Assembly (NCBI RefSeq): GCF_900199405.1
Contig: NZ_LT963430.1
Span: 1,581,605-1,645,604, forward strand
From: Beduinella massiliensis
Lineage (GTDB): Bacteria > Bacillota > Clostridia > Christensenellales > Aristaeellaceae
Length of the DNA stretch: 64,000 bases
Direction: 5' to 3'
Positions 51,832 through 61,554 of the stretch are shown here, piece after piece. The notes beneath the pieces are model-generated. The model made no database searches. It saw only the letters and a list, made by a program, of their open reading frames with translations, and was not told where the DNA came from. The translations under genes and the position numbers were made by a program. Each line of letters starts with the position of its first letter. Position 1 is the first letter of the stretch.

Positions 51832-52134
51832 ATGAGGCAAAAATACACGAAGGTACAAGGCCTTATTGAAACAATACGCGAGCGGAAAATCACAGGCGAA
51901 ACGAATCGTGAAATCGGAGCCAGCCTTGGGCTAACGAAGAAACAGGTTGAGCAACTAGTCAATCGAGAAAACCGTAGAGAACGATTAATCGCAAAGGGCG
52001 ATGTACCTCGCCCTAAAGGCCGTCCGCGTAAAATGCCGGAGAACGGGGAAATCCAGCAGAATAATGAATTGGTAAAACTGCGTATGCAGGTGGAACTGCT
52101 GCGAAATTTTCTGTTAGAAGTTGGAAGGAGGTGA
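51832..52134 (+). CDS. IS3-family transposase OrfA (helix-turn-helix)
   Basis: 100 residues, DNA-binding subunit. Helix-turn-helix TNREIGASLGLTKKQVEQLVNR (about residues 29-50), a basic stretch RPKGRPRK, and a short C-terminal coiled-coil helix NNELVKLRMQVELLRNFL. It overlaps orfB by 4 bp (GTGA) instead of showing an obvious A-rich slippery site, so OrfB may be made by re-initiation rather than frameshift. Confidence 0.9.
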   Translation: MRQKYTKVQGLIETIRERKITGETNREIGASLGLTKKQVEQLVNRENRRERLIAKGDVPRPKGRPRKMPENGEIQQNNELVKLRMQVELLRNFLLEVGRR

Positions 52135-52982
52135 AGTTGAAATATCGAGTTATAGAACGTTTTCGCAACATTTATCCTATCGTCACAATGTGTGAAGTAT
52201 TTGAAGTTTCCCGAAGTGGGTATTATGCTTGGCGTAAAAAGCAAGAAAAGACGCCGAAAGATCAGTGGTTGGTCGATCTGATTGTGGAATGTCAACAGCA
52301 GTGCAACCAGACCTACGGCATCCGCCGTGTTCGTCTCTGGATCCAGCGGAAGAAAAGAAAAAATGTAAATCTTAAAGCACTTCTGCGCGTCATGCGCAAG
52401 ACCAATCTGCTTGCACAGATTCGGCGGCAAAGAAGATATACTCAACATCAGCAAAACGTGTACAAATGCCCAAACCTATTGCAGCGTGCCTTTGAACAGC
52501 AACGGCCCAATCGTTTCTGGTCAACAGATATCACCTATATCCCCACACCACAGGGAATGCTGTATATGTGTGCGGTGATTGACCTTTGTGGTCGAATGGT
52601 GTTGGCCTATCGCATTGGTGGCGACATGGCCGCATCGCTGGTTACTCAGACGATCCGAGACGCTATGATAACAGAGAAGGTCACTGATGGACTCGCGCTC
52701 CACAGTGACCAAGGGTCTCAATACACCTCCGAAGCATACTTCGACCTAAGCAAAGAATATCACTTTCAACCCTCTATGTCCAGTCCCGGATGTCCATACG
52801 ACAATGCTGCTATGGAGAATTTCTTCGGAACGCTTAAATCGGAATGCCTTTATCGTGCCCATTATTCTACTCGCGCAGAGGTAGAGGAGTTGGTTGCACA
52901 ATATGTCCACTTCTACAACTTCGAACGCATTAACCTGAAATACGGCCTTACTCCCTATGAAATCAGGTGCAACGCCGCGTAA
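52131..52982 (+). CDS. IS3-family transposase OrfB (DDE integrase)
   Basis: 283 residues with an N-terminal HTH_21 segment (YGIRRVRLWI) and an rve integrase core. DDE residues are visible in WSTDITYIP (first Asp), LHSDQGSQYTS (second Asp) and AAMENFFGTLKSE (Glu). The core ends with FYNFERINLKYGLTPYE. GTG at 52131 overlaps the orfA stop; TTG at 52137, six bases from AAGGAGG, may be the true start. It appears intact. Confidence 0.93.
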   Translation: MKLKYRVIERFRNIYPIVTMCEVFEVSRSGYYAWRKKQEKTPKDQWLVDLIVECQQQCNQTYGIRRVRLWIQRKKRKNVNLKALLRVMRKTNLLAQIRRQRRYTQHQQNVYKCPNLLQRAFEQQRPNRFWSTDITYIPTPQGMLYMCAVIDLCGRMVLAYRIGGDMAASLVTQTIRDAMITEKVTDGLALHSDQGSQYTSEAYFDLSKEYHFQPSMSSPGCPYDNAAMENFFGTLKSECLYRAHYSTRAEVEELVAQYVHFYNFERINLKYGLTPYEIRCNAA

Positions 52983-53041
52983 GGTTGCGTAATTCTACAA
53001 TATCCTTTTATTTTCCTGTCCGTTCAACTGGATACAGTCCA

Positions 53042-54181
53042 ATCGAGAGCAAAGCGAATCGATATACGTTCGTGTGGCGAAAAAGAGTAGAACGGGAACT
53101 GAAGAAAATCAAAGAGAAGCTGAAAAAATACCGAACGGAAGAACATGGATACACGACGATGAAAAAGGCACAGGCATATTTGGATGAATTGAATCGGGAG
53201 ATTGCCCAAGCGAATATCGAGGTGAAGAAAGGCCGCGGACATCATAAACCCACGATTGTACGTTTACGGGACGAGGTTCAAGAGCTTGTTCGGCGTTGGA
53301 TGGATTATGAAGAAAAGCTCAAGACCTTGGGAGACGGGCGAAACAGCTTTTCAAAAACAGATCCGGATGCAACGTTCATGCACATGAAGGAAGATCATAT
53401 GCGCAACGGGCAGTTGAAGCCGGGATACAACGTACAGTTTGCAGTCAACAGCGAATACATCACAGGAATCGGAGTTTTTTCGGCCAGAACGGATTATTCA
53501 ACGCTTTCCATCCTGTTGAAAACCATGGAAGAATGGCAGAAGGCTATCTACAAAAGAGTCTGTTTGGATTCGGGTTATGAAAGCTTGCTCAACTACCGGC
53601 ATCTGGCAGGGAACAAGCAGCTGGCATACATCAAGCCCAATAACTACGAAGCCATAAAAGAGAAAAAGTTCAAGGCGCAGATCGGACGCAGAGAGAACAT
53701 GGCATATTACGAACCGGGGGACTATTTCCTGTGCAAAGCCGGAAGGATGCTGGTGCGGATTTCGACAACAACCGAAAAGGAAAAAGACGGTTCCCTGAAA
53801 GAATTGGCGCATTACCGCTGTGAGGATTGCTGTGCGTGTCCACATCGTGCGGCATGCTGTAAAGCCAAGGATCCCGAAAAGCAAAAGGAACTGGTTGTCT
53901 GCTGGGAAATGGAACATCTGCGCAAAGCTTCACTGGAACGAATCACATCAGAGGAAGGAAAACTGCTTCGGGTGAACCGCTCCATTCAGGCAGAAGGCAG
54001 CTTTGGTCAACTCAAGCATAACCGCAATTTCAAGCGCTTTTTGACCGGTGGTCATATCAAGGTGATGACGGAGCTATGCCTTCTTGCCCTCTCACAGAAC
54101 ATCCGTAAGCACATTTCCAAATGCAACGCCCAAAGGCAGAAAACGCATCTTCTGCGTCCCAAAGCGCTGCTGAAATTCTGA
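53042..54181 (+). pseudogene. 5'-truncated IS1182-type transposase
   Basis: The first IS1182-like residues are IESKANRYTFVWRKRVE, which in full-length transposases follow the first catalytic Asp (DGTKxEAxANKYTF). The N-terminal ~150-180 residues are absent and not found left of the IS3 element. The rest is open to 54181: FSKTDPDATFMHMKEDHMRNGQLKPGYN, a Cys cluster (CEDCCACPHRAACC) and RSIQAEGSFGQLKHNRNFKRFLTGG (Glu of the DDE set). The open frame reads back into IS3 DNA to 52967, giving a hybrid N-terminus without meaning. AT-rich relative to the chromosome. Confidence 0.88.
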
Positions 54182-54310
54182 TTTCCCAGAAAAACTGTTT
54201 TTGTTCATAAAAAACAGACGCCCTAAAAATACGATTGTGTTGGACGTCTATTTGCTGTTCGATTATTTGCTGAAATTGGCTGCGTTGTGACCATAAAAGA
54301 GTACAACAAT

Positions 54311-54347
54311 GGCGGTGCCGCAGATTTTTTTAATCTGCAACACCGCC
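54311..54347. repeat. Inverted repeat, dispersed hairpin family copy 2
   Basis: Arms GGCGGTG-CC-GCAGATT (54311-54326) and AATCTGC-AA-CACCGCC (54332-54347) with a 2x2 internal mismatch and a T5 loop. It lies 130 bp after the truncated IS1182-type gene and just beyond the 3' end of the thioredoxin-fusion gene on the other strand, so it may also serve as that operon's terminator. Confidence 0.82.
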
Positions 54348-54375
54348 CTGCACTTAATTGTATTTTACGAATCGC

Positions 54376-55608
54376 TTACATCAGCTTTTCCAAAAGTTCG
54401 TCAGCGATTTTTGCCCAGTCTTTCTTGGTGGTAGCGCCCATAACGGTTTTGATTACCTCGCCTGTGTCGTTGAGGAAAAAGCTGGTGGGGAAGGCGGTCA
54501 CACTTGGCAAGGTGTCAGAGAGGAGCTTTTCGCCGGGGACGACGATAGGGTAGGTCACGCCGGTCTTTGCCACGATCTCTTTTGCCAGTTCTAGCAGCTC
54601 CTGGTTGATCTCGCCCTTTTCGTTTACGACGTCGGCCACGACACCTACGACCTGGAATTTCTTCCCTGAATCGGCAAATTCCTTGTTCAGCTCCTCCAGG
54701 TGGGGCATTTCCGCCAGGCAGGGATTGCAGAAGGTCGCCCAGACGTTCACCATTGTGATTCCGCCCTTGACCAACAAATCCTCCGGCAGGGCGTTGCCGT
54801 CAAGGCTGGTTCCGTCCAACGCAAGACTGGGGAACATTTCGGCGCTGTCCGCGTAGTACATTTCGGCGGTATGATCGCTTGCTAGCATTGCCTTGTCGCC
54901 GGAGTCCTTCAAAATCTCGTTGGCCTGCTCCACCAATTTTTCCGCTTCCTCCGCCGTGGCGCAGGTGACGGTTCCACCCAGGTAATAGCCGCTGACGCTT
55001 TCGCCGGTCAGCTTTACGATATCCTCAGGGGTTACGAAAATCTCATATAGCGGCGCGTTCTCCTCGGTGAGTCCGCCAATCCTGCCCTTTTCGCTGTAGC
55101 CGTACAAACCGGTGATTTCATACTCGGCCTGGCCAAGCGGCGTATCCAGCGTCACCTTATCGCCCACCTTTTTGCCGTTCCTATGGGCCCAGGACGCTGG
55201 AACCACGCAGCCACCGGTGGAACCGTCCGCGGGCAATTTGCCCTCGGTCAGCTCGTAGGTGACAAACAGCCCCTTCTCCTCCAGTTCAGGTTCGCCGCTG
55301 AGCAGCATGTCTGAACTGTCGCCCAGTGTCACATCATCGATATAGCCTTCGATGTGATTTGGGCACTCCACGCCGGGAAGTGTCATCACCTTGCGCCACG
55401 TATCGTAGCTGAGCAGCTTGTCTGTGCTAAAGCGCACGCTGCGCTCCATCAGCGCCTGCTCCTGGTCGGAGATGGGGTCCTGTGTCACCATGTCGTCCAG
55501 GGAAGGGGCCCCATCCTCGCCGGGAATGAACACGGGCTCGGCGAGGATGCAGGTAGCCAGCGAGAAGGTCAAGCACAGGGCCAGCAAGAATGTCAATAGC
55601 TTTTTCAT
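54376..55608 (-). CDS. MacB-like extracellular domain fused to TlpA-type thioredoxin
   Basis: 410 residues, exported (signal peptide about 1-23, ATCILAEP). Residues about 85-200 (EKGLFVTYELTEGKLP, CVVPASWAHRNGKKVGDKVTL, YEITGLYGY) follow the extracytoplasmic core-domain pattern of FtsX/MacB permeases, and align by eye with VISDTLAGLNGLKPGDTF...VTGVY of the permease encoded upstream in the same operon. Residues about 275-410 are a TlpA/ResA thioredoxin with active site WATFCNPC (Cys294, Cys297) and cis-Pro in TAFPTSFFL. The last gene of the operon. It may hand reductant to, or be recruited by, the ABC complex. Confidence 0.85.
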   Translation of the reverse strand: MKKLLTFLLALCLTFSLATCILAEPVFIPGEDGAPSLDDMVTQDPISDQEQALMERSVRFSTDKLLSYDTWRKVMTLPGVECPNHIEGYIDDVTLGDSSDMLLSGEPELEEKGLFVTYELTEGKLPADGSTGGCVVPASWAHRNGKKVGDKVTLDTPLGQAEYEITGLYGYSEKGRIGGLTEENAPLYEIFVTPEDIVKLTGESVSGYYLGGTVTCATAEEAEKLVEQANEILKDSGDKAMLASDHTAEMYYADSAEMFPSLALDGTSLDGNALPEDLLVKGGITMVNVWATFCNPCLAEMPHLEELNKEFADSGKKFQVVGVVADVVNEKGEINQELLELAKEIVAKTGVTYPIVVPGEKLLSDTLPSVTAFPTSFFLNDTGEVIKTVMGATTKKDWAKIADELLEKLM

Positions 55609-55635
55609 CGTTAATTTCCTTTCTTTCTTCGAGCG

Positions 55636-56592
55636 TTAGACTTTTTCTCCTAAGCCGGATTTTTTGGCGCAGGTCTTAGAACAGGAGGCGCAAGAGGTTG
55701 TGCAGGCGGGTGTACGCGATTTCTTGCACGTGCCAAAGCTCCATGAGAGGGCCCCGGTGGGACAGGCCCGCACGCAGTCGCCGCAGCGGATGCACTCGAT
55801 GCTGTTTGGCGTCTTCCGGGGATCCACGCCCATCTTGCATACCTTTTTGCAGACGCCGCAGTCCACGCATTGCTCCTTGTCCACGCGCATGTGGTAGAGT
55901 GAAATGGGGTTAAACACGCCGTAGACTGCGCCCAGAGGGCAAAGAAACTTGCAAAATGGCCGGTAGATGAACATGGAGAGCACCAAGATGGACAGCAGCA
56001 GGAAAACCTTCCAACTAAACAGCCAGCCGACGGCGGCTTGTAAATTGGGATTGCCCGCCACTAGGGGAATGCCACTCAGCAAGGTGCCTGAGGGGCAAAT
56101 CCACTTGCAGAACCAGGGGTCTCCCTGGCCGATGATGTTCACCGCGAACATGGGCAGCAGCAGCACGAACACTGCAAGGATGACGTACTTGAGGTACTTC
56201 AGGATTCTTTCGCCTGGCAGCTTTTTGAGCTTTGGCACGGGGATTTTATGCAGCAAATCCTGAACCAACCCGAAGGGGCAGAGGAAACCGCAGATCAACC
56301 GGCCACAGAAAGAGCCCACGGCCACTAAAATACCGATGATGTAAAAGGAAAACTGATATTTCCGGCTGCCGACGACCGCCTGCAGGGCGCCGATGGGACA
56401 GGCCCCTAGCGCGCCGGGGCAGGAGTAGCAGTTAAGCCCCGGTACGCAAAGCGCTTTCGTGGGACCGGTGTAGATTTTCGACTGGAGAAATCCGTTTACG
56501 TACCCATTGGTCAACGCGGCGAATAGAATCTGCACCCAGAGGCGAATGCCTTTTTTCGGCCGCCTGTCCCCGATATTTTCTTTATGCTTCAT
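55636..56592 (-). CDS. NapH-like membrane polyferredoxin
   Basis: 318 residues, about five membrane helices, with Cys motifs on the loops: NCYSCPGALGACPIG, CGFLCPFGLVQDLLHKIPVPK, CKWICPSGTL and CKFLCPLGAVYGVFNP. A 2[4Fe-4S] ferredoxin module CVDCGVCKKVCKMG and CIRCGDCVRACPTGALSW follows near residues 240-285. A Cys-rich tail TCKKSRTPACTTSCASCSKTC (split here by position 287-308) has six more Cys. NapH/RnfB-type proteins pass electrons across or along the membrane. It lies between the CXXC peptide and the thioredoxin fusion, so it probably supplies electrons for that thioredoxin. Confidence 0.88.
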   Translation of the reverse strand: MKHKENIGDRRPKKGIRLWVQILFAALTNGYVNGFLQSKIYTGPTKALCVPGLNCYSCPGALGACPIGALQAVVGSRKYQFSFYIIGILVAVGSFCGRLICGFLCPFGLVQDLLHKIPVPKLKKLPGERILKYLKYVILAVFVLLLPMFAVNIIGQGDPWFCKWICPSGTLLSGIPLVAGNPNLQAAVGWLFSWKVFLLLSILVLSMFIYRPFCKFLCPLGAVYGVFNPISLYHMRVDKEQCVDCGVCKKVCKMGVDPRKTPNSIECIRCGDCVRACPTGALSWSFGTCKKSRTPACTTSCASCSKTCAKKSGLGEKV

Positions 56593-56601
56593 AGGCCACC
56601 T

Positions 56602-56748
56602 CTAACCGATCCCTATGCATTCCAGGCAGATTGCTACGGCTTTTTTGAGCACCGTCAAATGCTCTTCCCGGAACAACCCTACGCCAATGAACGCCAAACC
56701 CAATGCAAAGCATGCGATTCCGATCCACTGTCTTCTCCTTTCCGTCAT
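56602..56748 (-). CDS. CD1871A-type CXXC membrane peptide
   Basis: 48 residues: basic start (MTERRRQW), one membrane helix (IGIACFALGLAFIGVGLF) and a C-terminal AICLECIGIG with the CXXC pair. This matches the small CD1871A family found beside 4Fe-4S and TlpA genes in Firmicutes. The ATG at 56748 overlaps the ABC ATPase stop (ATGA) and the gene ends 9 bp before the polyferredoxin start. A thiol-redox relay between polyferredoxin and thioredoxin is a reasonable inference. Confidence 0.88.
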   Translation of the reverse strand: MTERRRQWIGIACFALGLAFIGVGLFREEHLTVLKKAVAICLECIGIG

Positions 56749-57431
56749 ACGGCTTCGCCTCCCGTCCCCAGGTAAACGAGGCATCCGCCCTTGTTCAGCC
56801 CCCAAACTTCGTCCGCGCAGCGGACAATTTTTTGCGAGTGGGTCGCGACGATTACGCACTTATTTTGTGCGTGAGCCAGATCAACCAAAATTTTCATCAC
56901 TTCTTTCTCCGTTTCCCGGTCCAGGTTGCCGCTGGGCTCGTCGGCTAGCATCAGGTTTGGTTCGTGGGACAAGGCGCGGGCGATGCCAACCCGCTGCTGC
57001 TCCCCTCCCGAGAGACCCAGCACACGGTGGTCCGCCGTCTCCTCGTCGATGCCCACGCGCTTGAGCAGGGCCAAGGCATAGGCGCGATTATCTTTATGGC
57101 GTACGCCGCTGATGGACATAGAAAGCTCGACGTTCTCTAACGCGCTTTTGTTTAGCAGCAGGTTAAGGCCCTGGAAGACGACGCCGATTTTTTTGGCGCG
57201 GTAATTATCTCGATCCATTTTGCGCAAATCTTCGCCTTCGTACAGAATCGTTCCCTCCGTACAAGCGTCTAGCCCGGCCAGCAGGGAGAGCAGCGAGGTC
57301 TTGCCCGCTCCGGATTTTCCCACGATGCAGTAGAGCCTGTGCGACTCAAAGTCCGCGTTCAACCCATGAAATACCGGCTTTGTGGCCTTTTCATAGGTGT
57401 ACCCCACGTTTTTAAGCGATAGAACAGCCAT
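56745..57431 (-). CDS. ABC transporter ATPase, MacB/LolD type
   Basis: 228 residues. Walker A GKSGAGKT (about residues 38-45), Q-loop [18 protein letters not shown], signature [15 protein letters not shown], Walker [13 protein letters not shown] and H-loop VATHS. The length and NLD sequence are those of the MacB/LolD/FtsE group, which drive mechanotransmission rather than classical import. It pairs with the following permease gene and is coupled to the CXXC peptide gene. Confidence 0.95.
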
Positions 57432-57447
57432 ATCGTTTCCTCCGTTA

Positions 57448-58821
57448 TCAGTTTCGTTCGCGCAAAATGCGCATGGGCTCGTACTTCATCGCGCAGAACG
57501 TGCTGACCGCGCCCGCCGTCGCTACCAGGACTAGGGCGATGCCCACGAGTTCCCAGACGGTTATGAGACTCAGCGTCGCGCTGATGTGGGTGATGGGCAC
57601 GTTGTCCGTGGCCAGCCCGTCGAAGGAGGCACCGCTCATTCCGATGGCCAAGCTCGGCCCGTTCAGTACCTGGGCCAACTGGTTGGACAGCAGCATATCG
57701 GTGACTGGCTGAGCCAACAGACTGCCTAGGGCGACGCCGAAACCCAGACAAACCGCCATGATGAGCGCGGATTCCAGCACCAGTTGAGTCGCGACCTTGC
57801 TCTTTTTCATGCCCATTGCCCGCAGAACGCCGATCTCATATTTTCGCTCTCGCACCACCAAAGAGGAAAGGATGAGCAAAACGGCCGCGCCCAGCGCCAG
57901 CACCACGCACAAGAAAATTAGGGAGATGACGCCCATCTGTTCGATGGGTTTTACAAAGGCGTCGTAGGCGACGGCGTCGGTGTTCAGGTTATAGTATTCG
58001 GAGAGGCCGGCAGCGTAGGCTTCCTGGGCGAAGGCGTCCAGATCGCCGGGGTTTTTCAGGAAAAAGGATGCTTGGAACGTGGGCTCGTAGGTATAGCGCG
58101 GGTCGGTCAGGAGATTATATTGGGTGAAGATCTCGTCGTCGCTATCCGTCTCCCCTTCGCCGTATGCCCGGTGGTAGACGCCTGTAACCTTGAGGAGCAT
58201 TTCCTCCAGGGGACGCCCCTGCTTGTCGGTGTAGTAGATGCTTTTCGCCTGAAAAGTGTCCCCGGGCTTAAGACCGTTCAATCCCGCCAAAGTGTCGGAG
58301 ATCACGCATTCGTCATCCGCCGTGGGAAAAACCCCTTTGATGAGTTTGGCCTGCCCGCCTTGGAACGGCTTGGCTTGGCTTACATCGTTGAACCCGCTGA
58401 GGATGTATTGGGGAAAACGGGTTTTCGCCGGGTCCTCGCCCGCTCGCTGCATCTCTATATCCCGGTAGTTAATCGGGGTGGTATACTTCAGGCCGTCCGC
58501 GATTGCCTCCATCTGGACGCTGTACACAGCCTTTTTCAGGTACTTGGAGGCGGACAGCCTTTGAAGCAGATCATCCGTGAGGGCGGGCTTGCGGAACGCC
58601 TCATCTTCTCCAAACGCTTCGCCGACCTTCACGTAATCGACGCTTAGGAGAACCTCGACGCTCAGCTGTTCCTTGTACTGAGCTGCGATGACGTTGGCGC
58701 CGTTGTAGACCACCAGCGTCACGCAGCTCATGGTGATGACCAGTAGAAAGAGCGCGGCCACCAGCGAGTTCCGCCCCGCGTTTCGGTACAGGTTTTGAAA
58801 GGCGTTTTTCAAAATATACAT
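57448..58821 (-). CDS. MacB/FtsX-type ABC permease
   Basis: 457 residues, four membrane helices: one at the N-terminus (about 18-40) and three at the end (about 300-330, 350-380, 415-440). A ~250-residue extracellular core domain lies between. VVRERKYEIGVLRAMGMKKSKVATQLVLES is the coupling region typical of MacB/FtsX. First gene of the operon, transcribed from the promoter in the 58822-58983 gap. Its substrate is unknown; MacB-type machines move peptides, lipoproteins or antibiotics, or transmit signals. Confidence 0.94.
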   Translation of the reverse strand: MYILKNAFQNLYRNAGRNSLVAALFLLVITMSCVTLVVYNGANVIAAQYKEQLSVEVLLSVDYVKVGEAFGEDEAFRKPALTDDLLQRLSASKYLKKAVYSVQMEAIADGLKYTTPINYRDIEMQRAGEDPAKTRFPQYILSGFNDVSQAKPFQGGQAKLIKGVFPTADDECVISDTLAGLNGLKPGDTFQAKSIYYTDKQGRPLEEMLLKVTGVYHRAYGEGETDSDDEIFTQYNLLTDPRYTYEPTFQASFFLKNPGDLDAFAQEAYAAGLSEYYNLNTDAVAYDAFVKPIEQMGVISLIFLCVVLALGAAVLLILSSLVVRERKYEIGVLRAMGMKKSKVATQLVLESALIMAVCLGFGVALGSLLAQPVTDMLLSNQLAQVLNGPSLAIGMSGASFDGLATDNVPITHISATLSLITVWELVGIALVLVATAGAVSTFCAMKYEPMRILRERN

Positions 58822-58856
58822 CGGACGGCACGCTCATTTCATTTAGGATTGGCATC

Positions 58857-58947
58857 AGTATAGCACGGTCAATGTTAATGCTGCGGCAAGGCGGAATCCC
58901 GCCACAAGGACGCCTTGCTTTTGCGTTAACATGACCCGTGGTATACT
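58857..58947. promoter_or_regulatory. Mirror-image divergent promoters, MacB-redox operon and its regulator genes
   Basis: Plus strand 58923-58947 reads GCGTTAACATGACC then CGTGG then TATACT. Minus strand 58881-58857 reads GCATTAACATTGACC then GTGC then TATACT. Both -10 boxes lack good -35 boxes, as expected for activator-driven promoters, and both carry the same upstream element. Between them a GC stem-loop pairs GCAAGGC (58886-58892) with GCCTTGC (58912-58918). An OmpR-type regulator binding the TTAACAT boxes would switch both directions together. Confidence 0.7.
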
Positions 58948-58983
58948 ACTTTGAATAAATTCAGATTGCGGCGGGTGATTGCG

Positions 58984-59652
58984 GTGCGTCTATTAGTAGT
59001 TGAAGATAACATGGAATTGGCGGATCTGATGAAGGAAAGGCTTTCCGGCTTTGGATATGTATGCGATGTGGCCTATGACGGGGCAAGCGGAGATCTGAAG
59101 GCCTCCGACAATGATTATGACGCGATTTTGCTGGATTTGAACCTGCCGGACAAGGATGGCTTCGACCTGCTGGAGGACTGGCGGGGCCGGGGGCTTTCTG
59201 CACCTGTCTTGATCATAACCGCCCGGGGCGGGCTGGAGCAACGGGTCAAGGGCCTACGGCTTGGCAGCGACGACTATATCACCAAGCCCTTTGAATTCGC
59301 GGAAGTGGACGCCCGCATCCAGGCGGTGATCCGGAGGTTCCGGGGCCGGGCGAATCCGGCCATTCTCATCGGGGCGCTATCTTTGGACCCGGCCACCCGG
59401 CGGGTAACGTTGAACGGGCAGGAGATTCCCCTTTCCTGCAAGGAATTTGATATTTTGGAATACTTGGCAAGTTGCTATCCCCGAATTGTATCTAATGAGG
59501 AATTGGCGGAACACGTCTACGATGAAAACTTCGATCCCTTTTCCGGGGTCATCCGGGTTCACATGGCGAACATCAAGAAAAAACTGAAAGCAGGGGATGT
59601 GCCAATTTTGCGGAATGAAAAAGGAAAGGGGTATTACCTGTGTCTAGAGTGA
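58984..59652 (+). CDS. OmpR-family response regulator
   Basis: 222 residues. Receiver MRLLVVEDNMELADLMKERL with phospho-acceptor Asp51 (LLDLNLPDKDG) and Lys in ITKPFEFAE. The C-terminal winged helix is EIPLSCKEFDILEYL...RVHMANIKKKL. GTG 58984 is preferred: it gives the standard MRLLVVEDN start. GTG 58975 is an alternative; a TTG at 58951 would sit too close to the promoter. It probably activates the divergent MacB-redox operon. Confidence 0.93.
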   Translation: MRLLVVEDNMELADLMKERLSGFGYVCDVAYDGASGDLKASDNDYDAILLDLNLPDKDGFDLLEDWRGRGLSAPVLIITARGGLEQRVKGLRLGSDDYITKPFEFAEVDARIQAVIRRFRGRANPAILIGALSLDPATRRVTLNGQEIPLSCKEFDILEYLASCYPRIVSNEELAEHVYDENFDPFSGVIRVHMANIKKKLKAGDVPILRNEKGKGYYLCLE

Positions 59653-60683
59653 AAAAGCAAACCTGGCTTTTGATTGCCGGGTATACCCTCCTGCTCAGCC
59701 TGAGTATTGTTCTGTGCTTTTACCTGTTCGTGCGCAATTCTGGCGCAGATACCAGCGCGCTGCCAAAGATCCTGTTTTACGCCCCAAGCGGCCAGACTAT
59801 TTTGGACAGCTCCGTCACCTCGGCAGAACTGCACGACTATTTTCGAGCGGCCTTTTTCCGATATTTGCCTGTGCTGGTCGCCTCCGTATGCCTGCTAGTT
59901 CTGTTATTTTCCTGCGTGCTGCTGCTGGGTTTCTGTACGCTGGAGCGCCGGCATAACAGAGTTATCGCCAGTGATCTGAGAGATTTGACGGAAGCGGAGC
60001 TTGAACGCATCCGGGAGATGGATTTAAAGGAAGAGTATCAAGGCATTCACGCGCGGCTTTCCGCGTATGAGGAGGATCAGCGGCGGCTCCATTCATTCAT
60101 TGCCCACGAGCAAAAAAATATGATCATGCTGATCAAAGCCCGGCTCGATCAAAATTCCGATCCGCTTTTAGTGCGGGACATCGAGAAGCTGGCCCAATCG
60201 GTAGACGACATTCTGACCGTATCCGCCCACCGGGACTCCAGCCATGAAACAGTGGACCTGGCGCTGATCGCAGCGGAGGAGTGTGACGCCTATCGAAACA
60301 TTTATTCCGATTTGATCTTTTCCTTTGACGAGAATGCCTCTTATACGATTCTGGGCAAGGAACAGTGGCTGCGCCGGGCTGTCGATAACCTGTTGGATAA
60401 CGCGGTCAAATATGGGGGTGGAAACCCGATTGAGGTGACTCTTGAGCAACAGCACAACAGCGTTTTACTCCACGTTCGGGATCACGGTGCTGGAATGAGC
60501 GAGGACGAGGCGGAACTGGTATTTGGATATGGCTACCAAATTAGAGCGTTGAACAAAGACGGCTATGGGATTGGGCTGAGTCTTGTACAGCATGTTTGCG
60601 CTTTGTGCGACGGCTTCATTCGAGTGAACAGCAAAAAGGGGCGGGGCAGTGAGTTTGTTTTAGCGTTTCCCCTAAATAGGTAA
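59640..60683 (+). CDS. Sensor histidine kinase of the MacB-redox locus
   Basis: 347 residues. TM1 about 9-31, a short extracellular loop of about 40 residues, TM2 about 75-98, then a dimerisation segment with HSFIAHEQKNMIMLIKARL (His156, HExKN rather than the common HELRTP). The HATPase has DNLLDNAVKYGGG, DHGAGMS and GYGIGLSLV. The short sensor loop suggests it reads the state of a membrane partner such as the ABC permease. GTG 59640 after AAAGGAAAGGGG overlaps the regulator gene by 13 bp. Confidence 0.92.
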   Translation: MSRVKKQTWLLIAGYTLLLSLSIVLCFYLFVRNSGADTSALPKILFYAPSGQTILDSSVTSAELHDYFRAAFFRYLPVLVASVCLLVLLFSCVLLLGFCTLERRHNRVIASDLRDLTEAELERIREMDLKEEYQGIHARLSAYEEDQRRLHSFIAHEQKNMIMLIKARLDQNSDPLLVRDIEKLAQSVDDILTVSAHRDSSHETVDLALIAAEECDAYRNIYSDLIFSFDENASYTILGKEQWLRRAVDNLLDNAVKYGGGNPIEVTLEQQHNSVLLHVRDHGAGMSEDEAELVFGYGYQIRALNKDGYGIGLSLVQHVCALCDGFIRVNSKKGRGSEFVLAFPLNR

Positions 60684-60712
60684 GTCTTTTTTATTAAAAC
60701 CTCCATAAACAG

Positions 60713-60744
60713 AAAAAGAGTGGCCTGCTTCACGTAGGCCGCTC
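60713..60744 (-). terminator. Terminator beyond the decayed transposase
   Basis: 9-bp stem (60718-60726 with 60736-60744, one G-U pair). On the minus strand it is followed by TTTTTCTG, so it closes the old transposase transcript. Confidence 0.7.
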
Positions 60745-60782
60745 CCAGATGATCAACAAAAGCCATGATTTCGCAGGGGAAA

Positions 60783-61554
60783 TCACGGCCTTTCATAAAA
60801 AAGAAGAGAGAAACGCAGAGCGAAGACATTCATCAAACGTTTTACGTTCTGGACGGCGGCAGTTAGAAAGCATTGCTTACGCATGGTTTGGATTCGGAGC
60901 ATGCGGGCAAAGAGCAGGCCGTGGTTTTGTTTGGACTCCGCAAAAGAGCGTTCAATGGTCCCTTTAAGCCATTCCTAAATCTGCCTTTCATTGGAAGATT
61001 TAGTAAAACGGGTAAGGGCGTCCAGGTCATTCTGCCGGACATGCCTTGTCACCATCTTCCGCGTGCTTTGCCGCTGAAACATTCTTTGCGCCTCAGACAA
61101 TCAGCACAAACTTTCGGATTACAGAAGTATTGCCGATATCCTTCTCGCGTCGTTGTTTTCCAGTTCAAAAGAGGGTGTTCTGGGCAACGATAAACGTCAT
61201 ATTTAAAGTCGTAAAGAAATCGCTACTTTCTGTAGTGCTCTCTGGCATGTGTGTGGCGTCGGTACCGATTAGGCCCTGGATTCCTTTTGCCCTCAACAGA
61301 TGTGCAATAGCGGCGTTGTGGTATCCCGCATCCATTCCATGTAAGTTGGTAAATAGCCTAAACGTGCTTTGATCTCTTGTACGTCCATTGTCCAGGCAAT
61401 ATAAATTCTTACAGTGACCATGGATGAAGCTGAAATCTGCTGCTGTTTCGACATTCTTCAGATAGAGGTGCTCTTTCGGCGCCAGATCTTCCAACAACAC
61501 GATCCTGCATTCATTCTGCCGGCCTATTTTCCGTTTTCGCAGCATTCGTTTCAT
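60783..61554 (-). pseudogene. Decayed IS1182-type transposase
   Basis: On the minus strand the N-terminal block LLEDLAPKEHLYLKNVETAADFS...LYCLDNGRTRDQ (61554 downward) and GTDATHM are recognisable. Then, in other frames, CPEHPLLNWK...YFCNPKVCADCLRRKECF (Cys cluster) and GTIERSFAESKQNHGLLFARM...QCFLTAAVQNVKRLM complete the C-terminus. Stops, frameshifts and an internal deletion between the first and second Asp break it. It is a different, more decayed copy than the one at 53042-54181. Confidence 0.85.

Follow-up and report, generated by a model that had tools for sequence, protein, structure and literature searches.

The five minus-strand genes at positions 54,376 to 58,821 of a 64,000-nucleotide stretch of the Beduinella massiliensis genome (contig NZ_LT963430.1; the whole stretch is referred to as the window), together with a regulator and a kinase gene that diverge from them, are almost certainly a composite of two units. 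One consists of an ATP-binding cassette (ABC) permease and ATPase with their sensor pair, and the other is a redox triad of a membrane polyferredoxin, a small CXXC peptide and an exported thioredoxin. The triad is a real conserved unit, the regulator, kinase, permease and ATPase occur together elsewhere without redox genes, and the pairing of the two seems to have been made several times in evolution. The genes concerned are the following, with the segments spanning the membrane abbreviated as TM.

57448..58821, minus strand: FtsX/MacB-type ABC permease of 457 aa, PF02687 at 52.3 bits (gathering score 25.5), FtsX domain at residues 302-442.
56745..57431, minus strand: ABC ATPase of the LolD/FtsE/MacB class, 228 aa, ABC_tran PF00005 at 108.2 bits (cut-off 25).
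56602..56748, minus strand: single-TM CXXC peptide of the CD1871A family (NCBIfam NF040920), 48 aa, with CLEC near the C-terminus.
55636..56592, minus strand: NapH-like membrane polyferredoxin of 318 aa, Fer4_5 at 57.9 bits (cut-off 22), Fer4 over cut-off.
54376..55608, minus strand: exported thioredoxin of 410 aa, made up of a signal/TM segment, a MacB-type domain and a TlpA/ResA-type thioredoxin with CNPC, Redoxin PF08534 at 44.5 (26.6).
54913..55260, minus strand: the part of the thioredoxin gene encoding the MacB-type periplasmic core domain (residues 117-232), hhalign 96% to the permease profile.
58951..59652, plus strand: OmpR-type response regulator, Response_reg and Trans_reg_C over cut-off.
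59640..60683, plus strand: sensor histidine kinase, HATPase_c over cut-off, with an outer loop of ~50 residues between two TM.

All five minus-strand genes are open, and they are separated in order by 16 bp, a 4-bp overlap, 9 bp and 27 bp, the overlap being formed by the ATG of the CXXC peptide, which shares ATGA with the stop of the ATPase. By hydropathy the permease has 4 predicted TM (20-38, 299-317, 352-370 and 415-433) and one large extracytoplasmic domain, and the kinase has TM segments at 9-27 and 78-96. The start of the regulator is listed as 58951; judged by eye, a GTG at 58984 is likelier and gives the usual N-terminus. A preliminary description of this DNA had named the same run of permease, ATPase, 48-residue CXXC peptide, NapH-like polyferredoxin and exported thioredoxin, with a divergent sensor/regulator pair, and the gene calls and family scans bear this out; the thioredoxin stands as well, its two-domain build with a MacB-type N-terminal part having been only hinted at there.

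Comparison with curated models placed the CXXC peptide in the CD1871A family (55.5 bits against a cut-off of 32, covering profile positions 3-38 of 38) and the permease in the FtsX-like superfamily, and identified the thioredoxin as a TlpA/ResA-type exported protein (Redoxin/AhpC-TSA with a CXXC motif, ResA structures being among its best fold matches). The polyferredoxin scored below the cut-offs of the NapH models TIGR02163 and NF007013 (60.8 against 213.05 and 47.1 against 234), the thioredoxin below that of the ResA equivalog-level model NF002854 (62.1 against 170), and the permease and ATPase, which are separate genes and not fused, reached 21.5 and 131.2 against the 966 of the MacB exporter model NF007826. 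Since these models were missed by wide margins, the names NapH, MacB and ResA denote likeness and not membership. The best NCBIfam match of the ATPase was LolD at 176 bits, with the LolD, FtsE and bacteriocin-export types all below cut-off. DsbD_TM (PF02683, CcdA/DsbD) was absent from the Pfam matches of the window proteins at E 0.01, and no flavin mononucleotide (FMN)-binding domain was matched in the nine window proteins scanned.

The conservation of the triad was assessed in two sets of loci. A CD1871A profile search of 245 genomes sampled from the class Clostridia, the window's own included, gave matches at E <= 0.01 in 42 genomes and over the cut-off in 39, so the triad is common in this class. 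Forty of the 43 match places were taken as set 1, leaving out the window's own place and two weak matches in genomes G142 and G044; locus L070, which scores below cut-off and has both motif cysteines replaced, was excluded from all triad counts, and L055 was counted as a CXXC locus though its motif is cut by a TGA codon, giving 39 loci. No relative turned up when the whole thioredoxin was searched against the genome collection, and the polyferredoxin alignment was used instead for set 2, the best 80 of 591 polyferredoxin relatives in named genomes, a choice that leans towards the window's polyferredoxin. Among the resulting 119 triad loci the polyferredoxin and the CXXC peptide adjoin each other in 117 (39/39 in set 1 and 78/80 in set 2), and a separate thioredoxin gene is near in 97 (30/39 in set 1, on the same strand and within 900 bp, and 67/80 in set 2). 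Set 2 covers Treponema besides many Clostridia. A locus from the same genus as the window (L119) carries the thioredoxin, the CXXC peptide and a polyferredoxin that scores 399.6 bits, second only to that of L058 (399.7), and no FtsX-type gene was found in the stretch around this triad.

In the polyferredoxin 18 cysteine positions are each conserved in 97% or more of 40 rows (gaps left out), and they form an N-terminal quartet, three CX3CP pairs and a 2[4Fe-4S] ferredoxin; its structure model gave no PDB match below E 0.037, the best ones being ferredoxin-like pieces. The CXXC peptide carries its CxEC at the C-terminal end, and of the 38 set-1 peptides whose motif is readable, 30 carry more positive charge on the N-flank of the TM than on the C-flank, from which the positive-inside rule would place the CXEC motif outside. 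Two loci (L059, 6884-9515, and L062, 4082-7043) encode a fusion of polyferredoxin and thioredoxin in the order ferredoxin motifs, TM stretch, thioredoxin CXXC, and in both an adjoining protein with five predicted TM ends in a CD1871A-type CXXC motif. These fusions are the best sequence evidence pointing to the polyferredoxin and the thioredoxin as partners on opposite sides of the membrane; the two genomes belong to one family of the window's order, and the fusions may be one event. That the triad is a thiol relay we regard as quite probable, and the families named make outward electron flow likely. The preliminary description had drawn a path for electrons through the polyferredoxin and CXXC peptide to an outside thioredoxin; the conserved triad and the two fusions fit an inside-to-outside path of this kind, and the path itself is one that we infer.

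CcdA is rarer in CXXC-positive genomes (13/42 against 111/203; Fisher p 0.006 with no correction for kinship). A role for the relay as a strict CcdA replacement was rejected, since the 13 CXXC-positive genomes that also have CcdA include the window's own.

Some variation was seen among the triad loci. The CD1871A-like peptide of L070 (8209-8361) has no polyferredoxin beside it and is possibly a non-redox descendant. In the two Lachnoanaerobaculum loci L189 (8001-11643) and L193 (8001-15502) a histidine kinase gene lies between the polyferredoxin and the CXXC peptide, and L193 has two thioredoxin genes; in L039 (6845-7723) the thioredoxin domains are seemingly reversed, with the thioredoxin first and then a helical-looking stretch. 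Spread of the polyferredoxin on plasmids and phages was not wide at E <= 1e-30: relatives were found on one plasmid record (an 809-kb replicon) and in two 'Bacteriophage sp.' records of human stool origin, both short and unannotated (MT836032.1, 9686-10558, and MT836098.1, 4754-5581), which may represent phage cargo or host DNA.

The second unit was traced by a permease search of 398 genomes of the phylum, with at most 4 candidates per genome scored, which gave matches at E <= 1e-15 in 15 genomes, the window's own included. A regulator and a kinase stand beside the permease and ATPase in 8 of the 14 stretches around related permeases. The nearest relatives of the window's regulator and kinase are in the ABC-only loci L105 (258.6 and 215.7 bits) and L107 (228.0 and 122.5 bits), whereas relatives near triads reach at most 164.9 bits for the regulator, with 84-86 bits against L031/L034, and at most 46.5 bits for the kinase. 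The window's sensor pair therefore belongs with the ABC half of the locus, and the idea that it was brought by the triad was rejected.

Two copies of one box were found in the divergent promoter region between the five-gene operon and the regulator gene.

58857..58878, minus strand: promoter/regulator box TTAACATT-N5-TGCTATACT, before the five-gene operon, zero mismatches.
58926..58947, plus strand: divergent box copy, before the regulator gene, with 2 mismatches to the TTAACATT-N5-TGCTATACT pattern and 1 to the genome-scan pattern.

The repeat to which both belong is inverted and imperfect, with 37-nt arms (58857-58893/58911-58947, 76% complementary) that each hold a copy of TTAACAT(T)-spacer-TG-TATACT, and the window has 2 matches to the TTAACATT-N5-TGCTATACT pattern at up to 2 mismatches against 0.03 expected from shuffles. 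A first strict pattern gave no match and the looser form was written after the sequences had been viewed, so neither this count nor the following one among 212 loci is blind. Exact matches to TAACATT-N5-TGNTATNNT stand at 4 distinct places in those 212 loci, in each case at a promoter of the window's permease/regulator type: in the window (as L073), before the permease in L105 and L107, and before the regulator in L045. The box listing itself has 6 of the 212 loci, L073 being the window's own copy and L075 and L077 repeating L105 and L107. In the window's own genome (4.18 Mb) no site at up to 1 mismatch lies outside the divergent promoter, which holds two. Genome G165 has one exact site, before its permease, with 0 in the control, while G211 and G546 each have three, one at this promoter type and two further, with 1 in the control. 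These placements suggest that the box belongs to the window's regulator type, which would bind it, and that the redox genes were placed behind it. Its restriction in the own genome to this promoter gives a direct route to testing induction.

We found the triad joined to an FtsX-type ABC more than once. Up to three genes away from the triad, FtsX-domain genes occupy 9 of 282 same-strand slots, against 5 of 1132 other slots (Fisher p 3.5e-4), as counted with a home-made profile that was seeded with seven domains, including several from joined loci, and may favour those loci. Seven of the 119 triad loci (L031, L034, L045, L144, L161, L201 and L206) have such a permease in the same-strand run within three genes; Pfam FtsX is over the cut-off in L034, L144, L161, L201 and L206, the five that were asked, and is also listed at the L045 place (G211:C6:176176). 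All seven, like the window, have a regulator and a kinase in the cluster. The transporters differ in kind. L031 and L034 have a Vex-like permease-ATPase-permease set with regulator and kinase behind the triad, and L045 has one permease, as in the window. The permeases of L144 ([Clostridium] citroniae), L201 (C. tetanomorphum) and L206 (Clostridium sp. OS1-26) have 629-662 aa with the FtsX domain at ~60-179, which we take to be a Bce-like arrangement. L161 (Catenibacillus scindens) has an ABC pair of which one is an ABC_tran-FtsX fusion over both cut-offs and the other has FtsX just below. In two loci the genes are interleaved, as ATPase-thioredoxin-CXXC-polyferredoxin-permease in L206 and as thioredoxin-ABC-ABC-CXXC-polyferredoxin in L161. 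On a 125-row polyferredoxin tree made by a quick method the ABC-joined label needs 7 changes, at least 5 of them forced by well supported branches; with shuffled labels the mean was 7.9 and 66 of 500 were as low as 7, so the label is spread over the tree in the manner expected of independent joinings.

Two further loci have transporters of other kinds near the triad. In L203 (3798-7720, Oceanirhabdus seepicola) the triad follows an ATPase flanked by two proteins with no Pfam match, possibly a transporter of the ABC-2 or lantibiotic-immunity type. In L037 (834-8141) it is preceded by three ATPase-profile proteins (729, 575 and 578 aa) and followed by a regulator and a kinase; Pfam confirmed ABC_tran in the one protein tested, and by the home-made profile this ABC is not of the FtsX type.

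A feature seen only in the window is the MacB-type domain on the thioredoxin. Residues 117-232 align with the permease profile at an hhalign probability of 96%, against at most 0.8% for 100 shuffles and at most 1.4% for the N-domains of 12 other thioredoxins; Pfam MacB_PCD scores below its cut-off on this part (18 against 27), and no solved structure was matched by the outer-domain profile. Its nearest single protein among the loci compared is the Vex1-like first permease of L113 (phmmer E 4.4e-5), and in a search of 398 genomes with the N-domain the gene of that permease, in G528, was the only match besides the window's own (E 5.9e-5). A recent copy of the neighbouring permease was rejected as its source (20.8 bits, E 0.039). 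The thioredoxin was folded with thioredoxin-only rows, an alignment that mixed permease domains and thioredoxins having been misaligned and left unused; the thioredoxin part gave a confident model (predicted local distance difference test, pLDDT, of 93-98 by block) that matches ResA, TlpA and Etrx2, and the CNPC cysteines 294 and 297 are invariant in 22 rows.

The reading that we favour, with about an even chance of being right as a whole, is that the window encodes a sensor-controlled FtsX-superfamily ABC module with a built-in transmembrane thiol-reducing relay. The ABC module would belong to the large group involved in detecting and resisting peptide antibiotics. The kinase/regulator pair would detect stress and open the divergent promoter, turning on all five genes. 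Electrons might then come from reduced ferredoxin in the cytosol, or from some other donor of low potential, and enter the polyferredoxin at its 2[4Fe-4S] domain; the cysteine sites of this protein within the membrane would hand them on to the outer face, where the CXEC pair of the CD1871A peptide would take them up and deliver them to the exported thioredoxin. The MacB-type domain would hold this thioredoxin against the outer domain of the permease, where it could reduce the disulfides of the molecule on which the ABC machine acts; an antimicrobial peptide or an envelope protein that has been damaged is the likeliest candidate. Coupling of the redox genes to the ABC beyond shared control is a part of this towards which we lean; peptide-antibiotic defence as the purpose, an analogy drawn from the company of Bce-like and Vex-like units, is more tentative and falls somewhat short of an even chance. 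Bolder still, and in our judgement unlikely, is an unrecognised class of defence in which a ferredoxin-driven relay powers an outer thioredoxin that unlocks disulfide-bonded antimicrobial peptides on Bce-, Vex- and MacB-like ABCs, assembled at least 5 times independently, with the window's thioredoxin having taken the outer domain of a lost second permease.

Several results weigh against the built-in relay. There is no FtsX-type ABC in the same-strand run at 112 of the 119 triad loci, so the basic role of the relay does not need one, and a triad-type CXXC peptide or polyferredoxin was found in 0 of the 14 stretches around related permeases (6 to 15 kb, some ended by the contig). The five genes are thus rarely together, and their description as one fixed unit, for which co-occurrence across genomes had been proposed as the check, fails. 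CcdA loci used as a control, 40 from the upper part of the list and so not random, had an FtsX-type permease near in 0/40 against 7/119, a difference short of significance whether loci (p 0.19) or slots (p 0.063) are compared. Counted by slot, regulator genes show no enrichment around the triad (21/639 against 17/775, p 0.25); under a stricter rule 8 of 39 set-1 loci have them, as do 4 of 69 background blocks. Among 128 other thioredoxin open reading frames none has the MacB-type domain, so tethering by it is not general, and its model in the window is of low confidence (block pLDDT 24-77), which is no test of the MacB-type fold since the alignment left this domain without homologues. A reversed control of the box pattern also has 2 sites in the own genome, so it is the place of the sites and not their number that is evidence. 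Finally, the own genome offers a second possible supply of outer reductant besides the relay, in the form of a CcdA-type gene (C3:848868) and a thioredoxin match (849812).

In one alternative, the ABC and the relay are co-regulated neighbours without physical coupling, two separate answers to envelope stress on one promoter, with the relay keeping envelope proteins reduced. The great majority of triads do without an FtsX-type ABC, the same box stands at ABC-only relatives, and the joining could be accounted for by a shared promoter alone; the pneumococcal CcdA-Etrx system, which feeds methionine sulfoxide reductase (PMC3914529), offers a parallel. The interleaved orders of L206 and L161, the MacB-type domain fused to the thioredoxin and the repeated joining to one ABC superfamily speak against it, and we consider this alternative rather improbable. 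The preliminary description had the redox parts acting with the ABC; they are not conserved together, and yet a joining that is repeated, enriched, interleaved in two loci and set behind a shared box in the window makes some functional link between triad and ABC likely.

It is also conceivable that the ABC exports a small thiol or a cysteine-rich peptide and that the relay keeps the product reduced after export. A thioredoxin beside an exporter is chemically sensible, the best scores of the ATPase, though below cut-off, are with the LolD, FtsE and bacteriocin-export types, and two ABC genes stand as a pair in L161. Among the nine window proteins scanned, however, none beside the operon was recognised as biosynthetic or as a precursor peptide, and the recurring two-component pairs fit the sensing of an outside agent better, so that we regard export as quite unlikely. 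A reversed relay, taking electrons from outside thiols into the polyferredoxin and so forming disulfides, is very improbable: CXXC chemistry is reversible and the sequence does not fix the direction, but the thioredoxin domain belongs with ResA and TlpA, a type that acts mostly as a reductant where it has been studied, the polyferredoxin has a bacterial-type 2[4Fe-4S] ferredoxin domain, usually a low-potential donor, and CcdA is rarer in CXXC-positive genomes, as expected of an alternative reductant supply.

A Bce permease is large, about 650 aa, with a two-component partner, and Vex123-VncRS has two permeases flanking one ATPase and a regulator/kinase pair. The window permease is not of the Bce type, having 457 aa and its FtsX domain at 302-442, though a two-component partner is present; nor is the window a Vex123-VncRS, as it has a single permease and its regulator scores 84-86 bits against L031/L034 as opposed to 258.6 against L105. 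Bce modules are described as peptide-antibiotic resistance machines (PMC10314905). In the portions of the sources consulted they pair an ABC transporter with a two-component partner, as the window does, and redox genes are not part of the module (PMC10314905, PMC7038271). Three triad loci have permeases that are Bce-like in size and in the position of the FtsX domain; the window permease has 4 predicted TM. Vex123-VncRS of pneumococcus (PMC11034029) is another close system. The order permease-ATPase-permease-regulator-kinase is present in L113, and L031/L034 carry such a set behind the triad; the window has a single permease, with a second outer domain fused to the thioredoxin instead.

On the redox side, the CcdA-Etrx systems of pneumococcus likewise take electrons from the cytosol across the membrane, by way of a protein embedded there, to an exported thioredoxin of TlpA type (PMC3914529). 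Cytosolic thioredoxin is the source that feeds CcdA, whereas the window has an 18-cysteine polyferredoxin and a separate CXXC peptide; the own genome has both kinds. Flavinylated extracytosolic electron transfer systems have a NapH-like Fer4_5 membrane protein that passes electrons outward, as we propose for the window, but in the sections of the paper covered they have an FMN-binding domain in or beside that protein (PMC8238504). Closest is a three-protein 4Fe-4S/TlpA/CxxC operon of gut Clostridia in a preprint of November 2025, with the same three gene families side by side; according to the text available it was previously uncharacterised, is assigned to redox homeostasis and is linked statistically to immune side effects of cancer therapy, and that text speaks of neither an ABC partner nor a sensor pair for it, and of no promoter box and no MacB-type domain (PMC12637426). 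The redox triad is thus known from that part of the published record, though unexplained, and what appears new is its setting in a sensor-controlled FtsX-type ABC module; in the open-licence PMC texts covered, no description of the triad linked to an ABC and sensor pair was found.

The repeated link to sensor-controlled ABC modules is a concrete hint at a use of the reducing power; the relay may serve to break disulfide bonds outside the cell. To our knowledge, the transfer of reducing power across the membrane in anaerobic Clostridia has been little studied.

The TGA codon in L055 (8404-8535; the same place as L026, in genome G096) replaces the first motif cysteine codon of the CD1871A peptide, which would read KAVRV-U-LECIGIG if the TGA were read through and then ends at a normal stop. 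SelB is over the cut-off in G096 and in 0 of 3 other genomes tested. No further TGA case was found among the matches of the 245 class genomes, the 206 genomes of the family of G096 or 158 loci with the motif, and the RNA after the TGA folds no better than shuffles (z -0.42). A selenocysteine form of the relay is possible in this single case, as is a plain nonsense mutation, and we have shifted none of the above judgements on its account; if real, a selenocysteine in the peptide would favour a redox role.

At its lower end the operon is followed by one candidate terminator, and the window stretch had no Rfam match.

54311..54347, minus strand: terminator-like hairpin with a 16-pair stem, after the thioredoxin gene.

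Terminator-like sites are not commoner than chance here (5 found in 54200-60900 against 8.3 expected), so the support for this one lies in its place and its 16-pair stem. Just below the operon is a transposase gene (52967-54181, PF13751 over cut-off). Transposase genes occupy 51832-54181, one confirmed as DDE_Tnp_1_6 and the other recognised by eye, and a transposase-like remnant was seen, also by eye, above the kinase at ~60749-61554. The operon may lie between insertion elements, and G+C content is lower around the flanking transposase genes.

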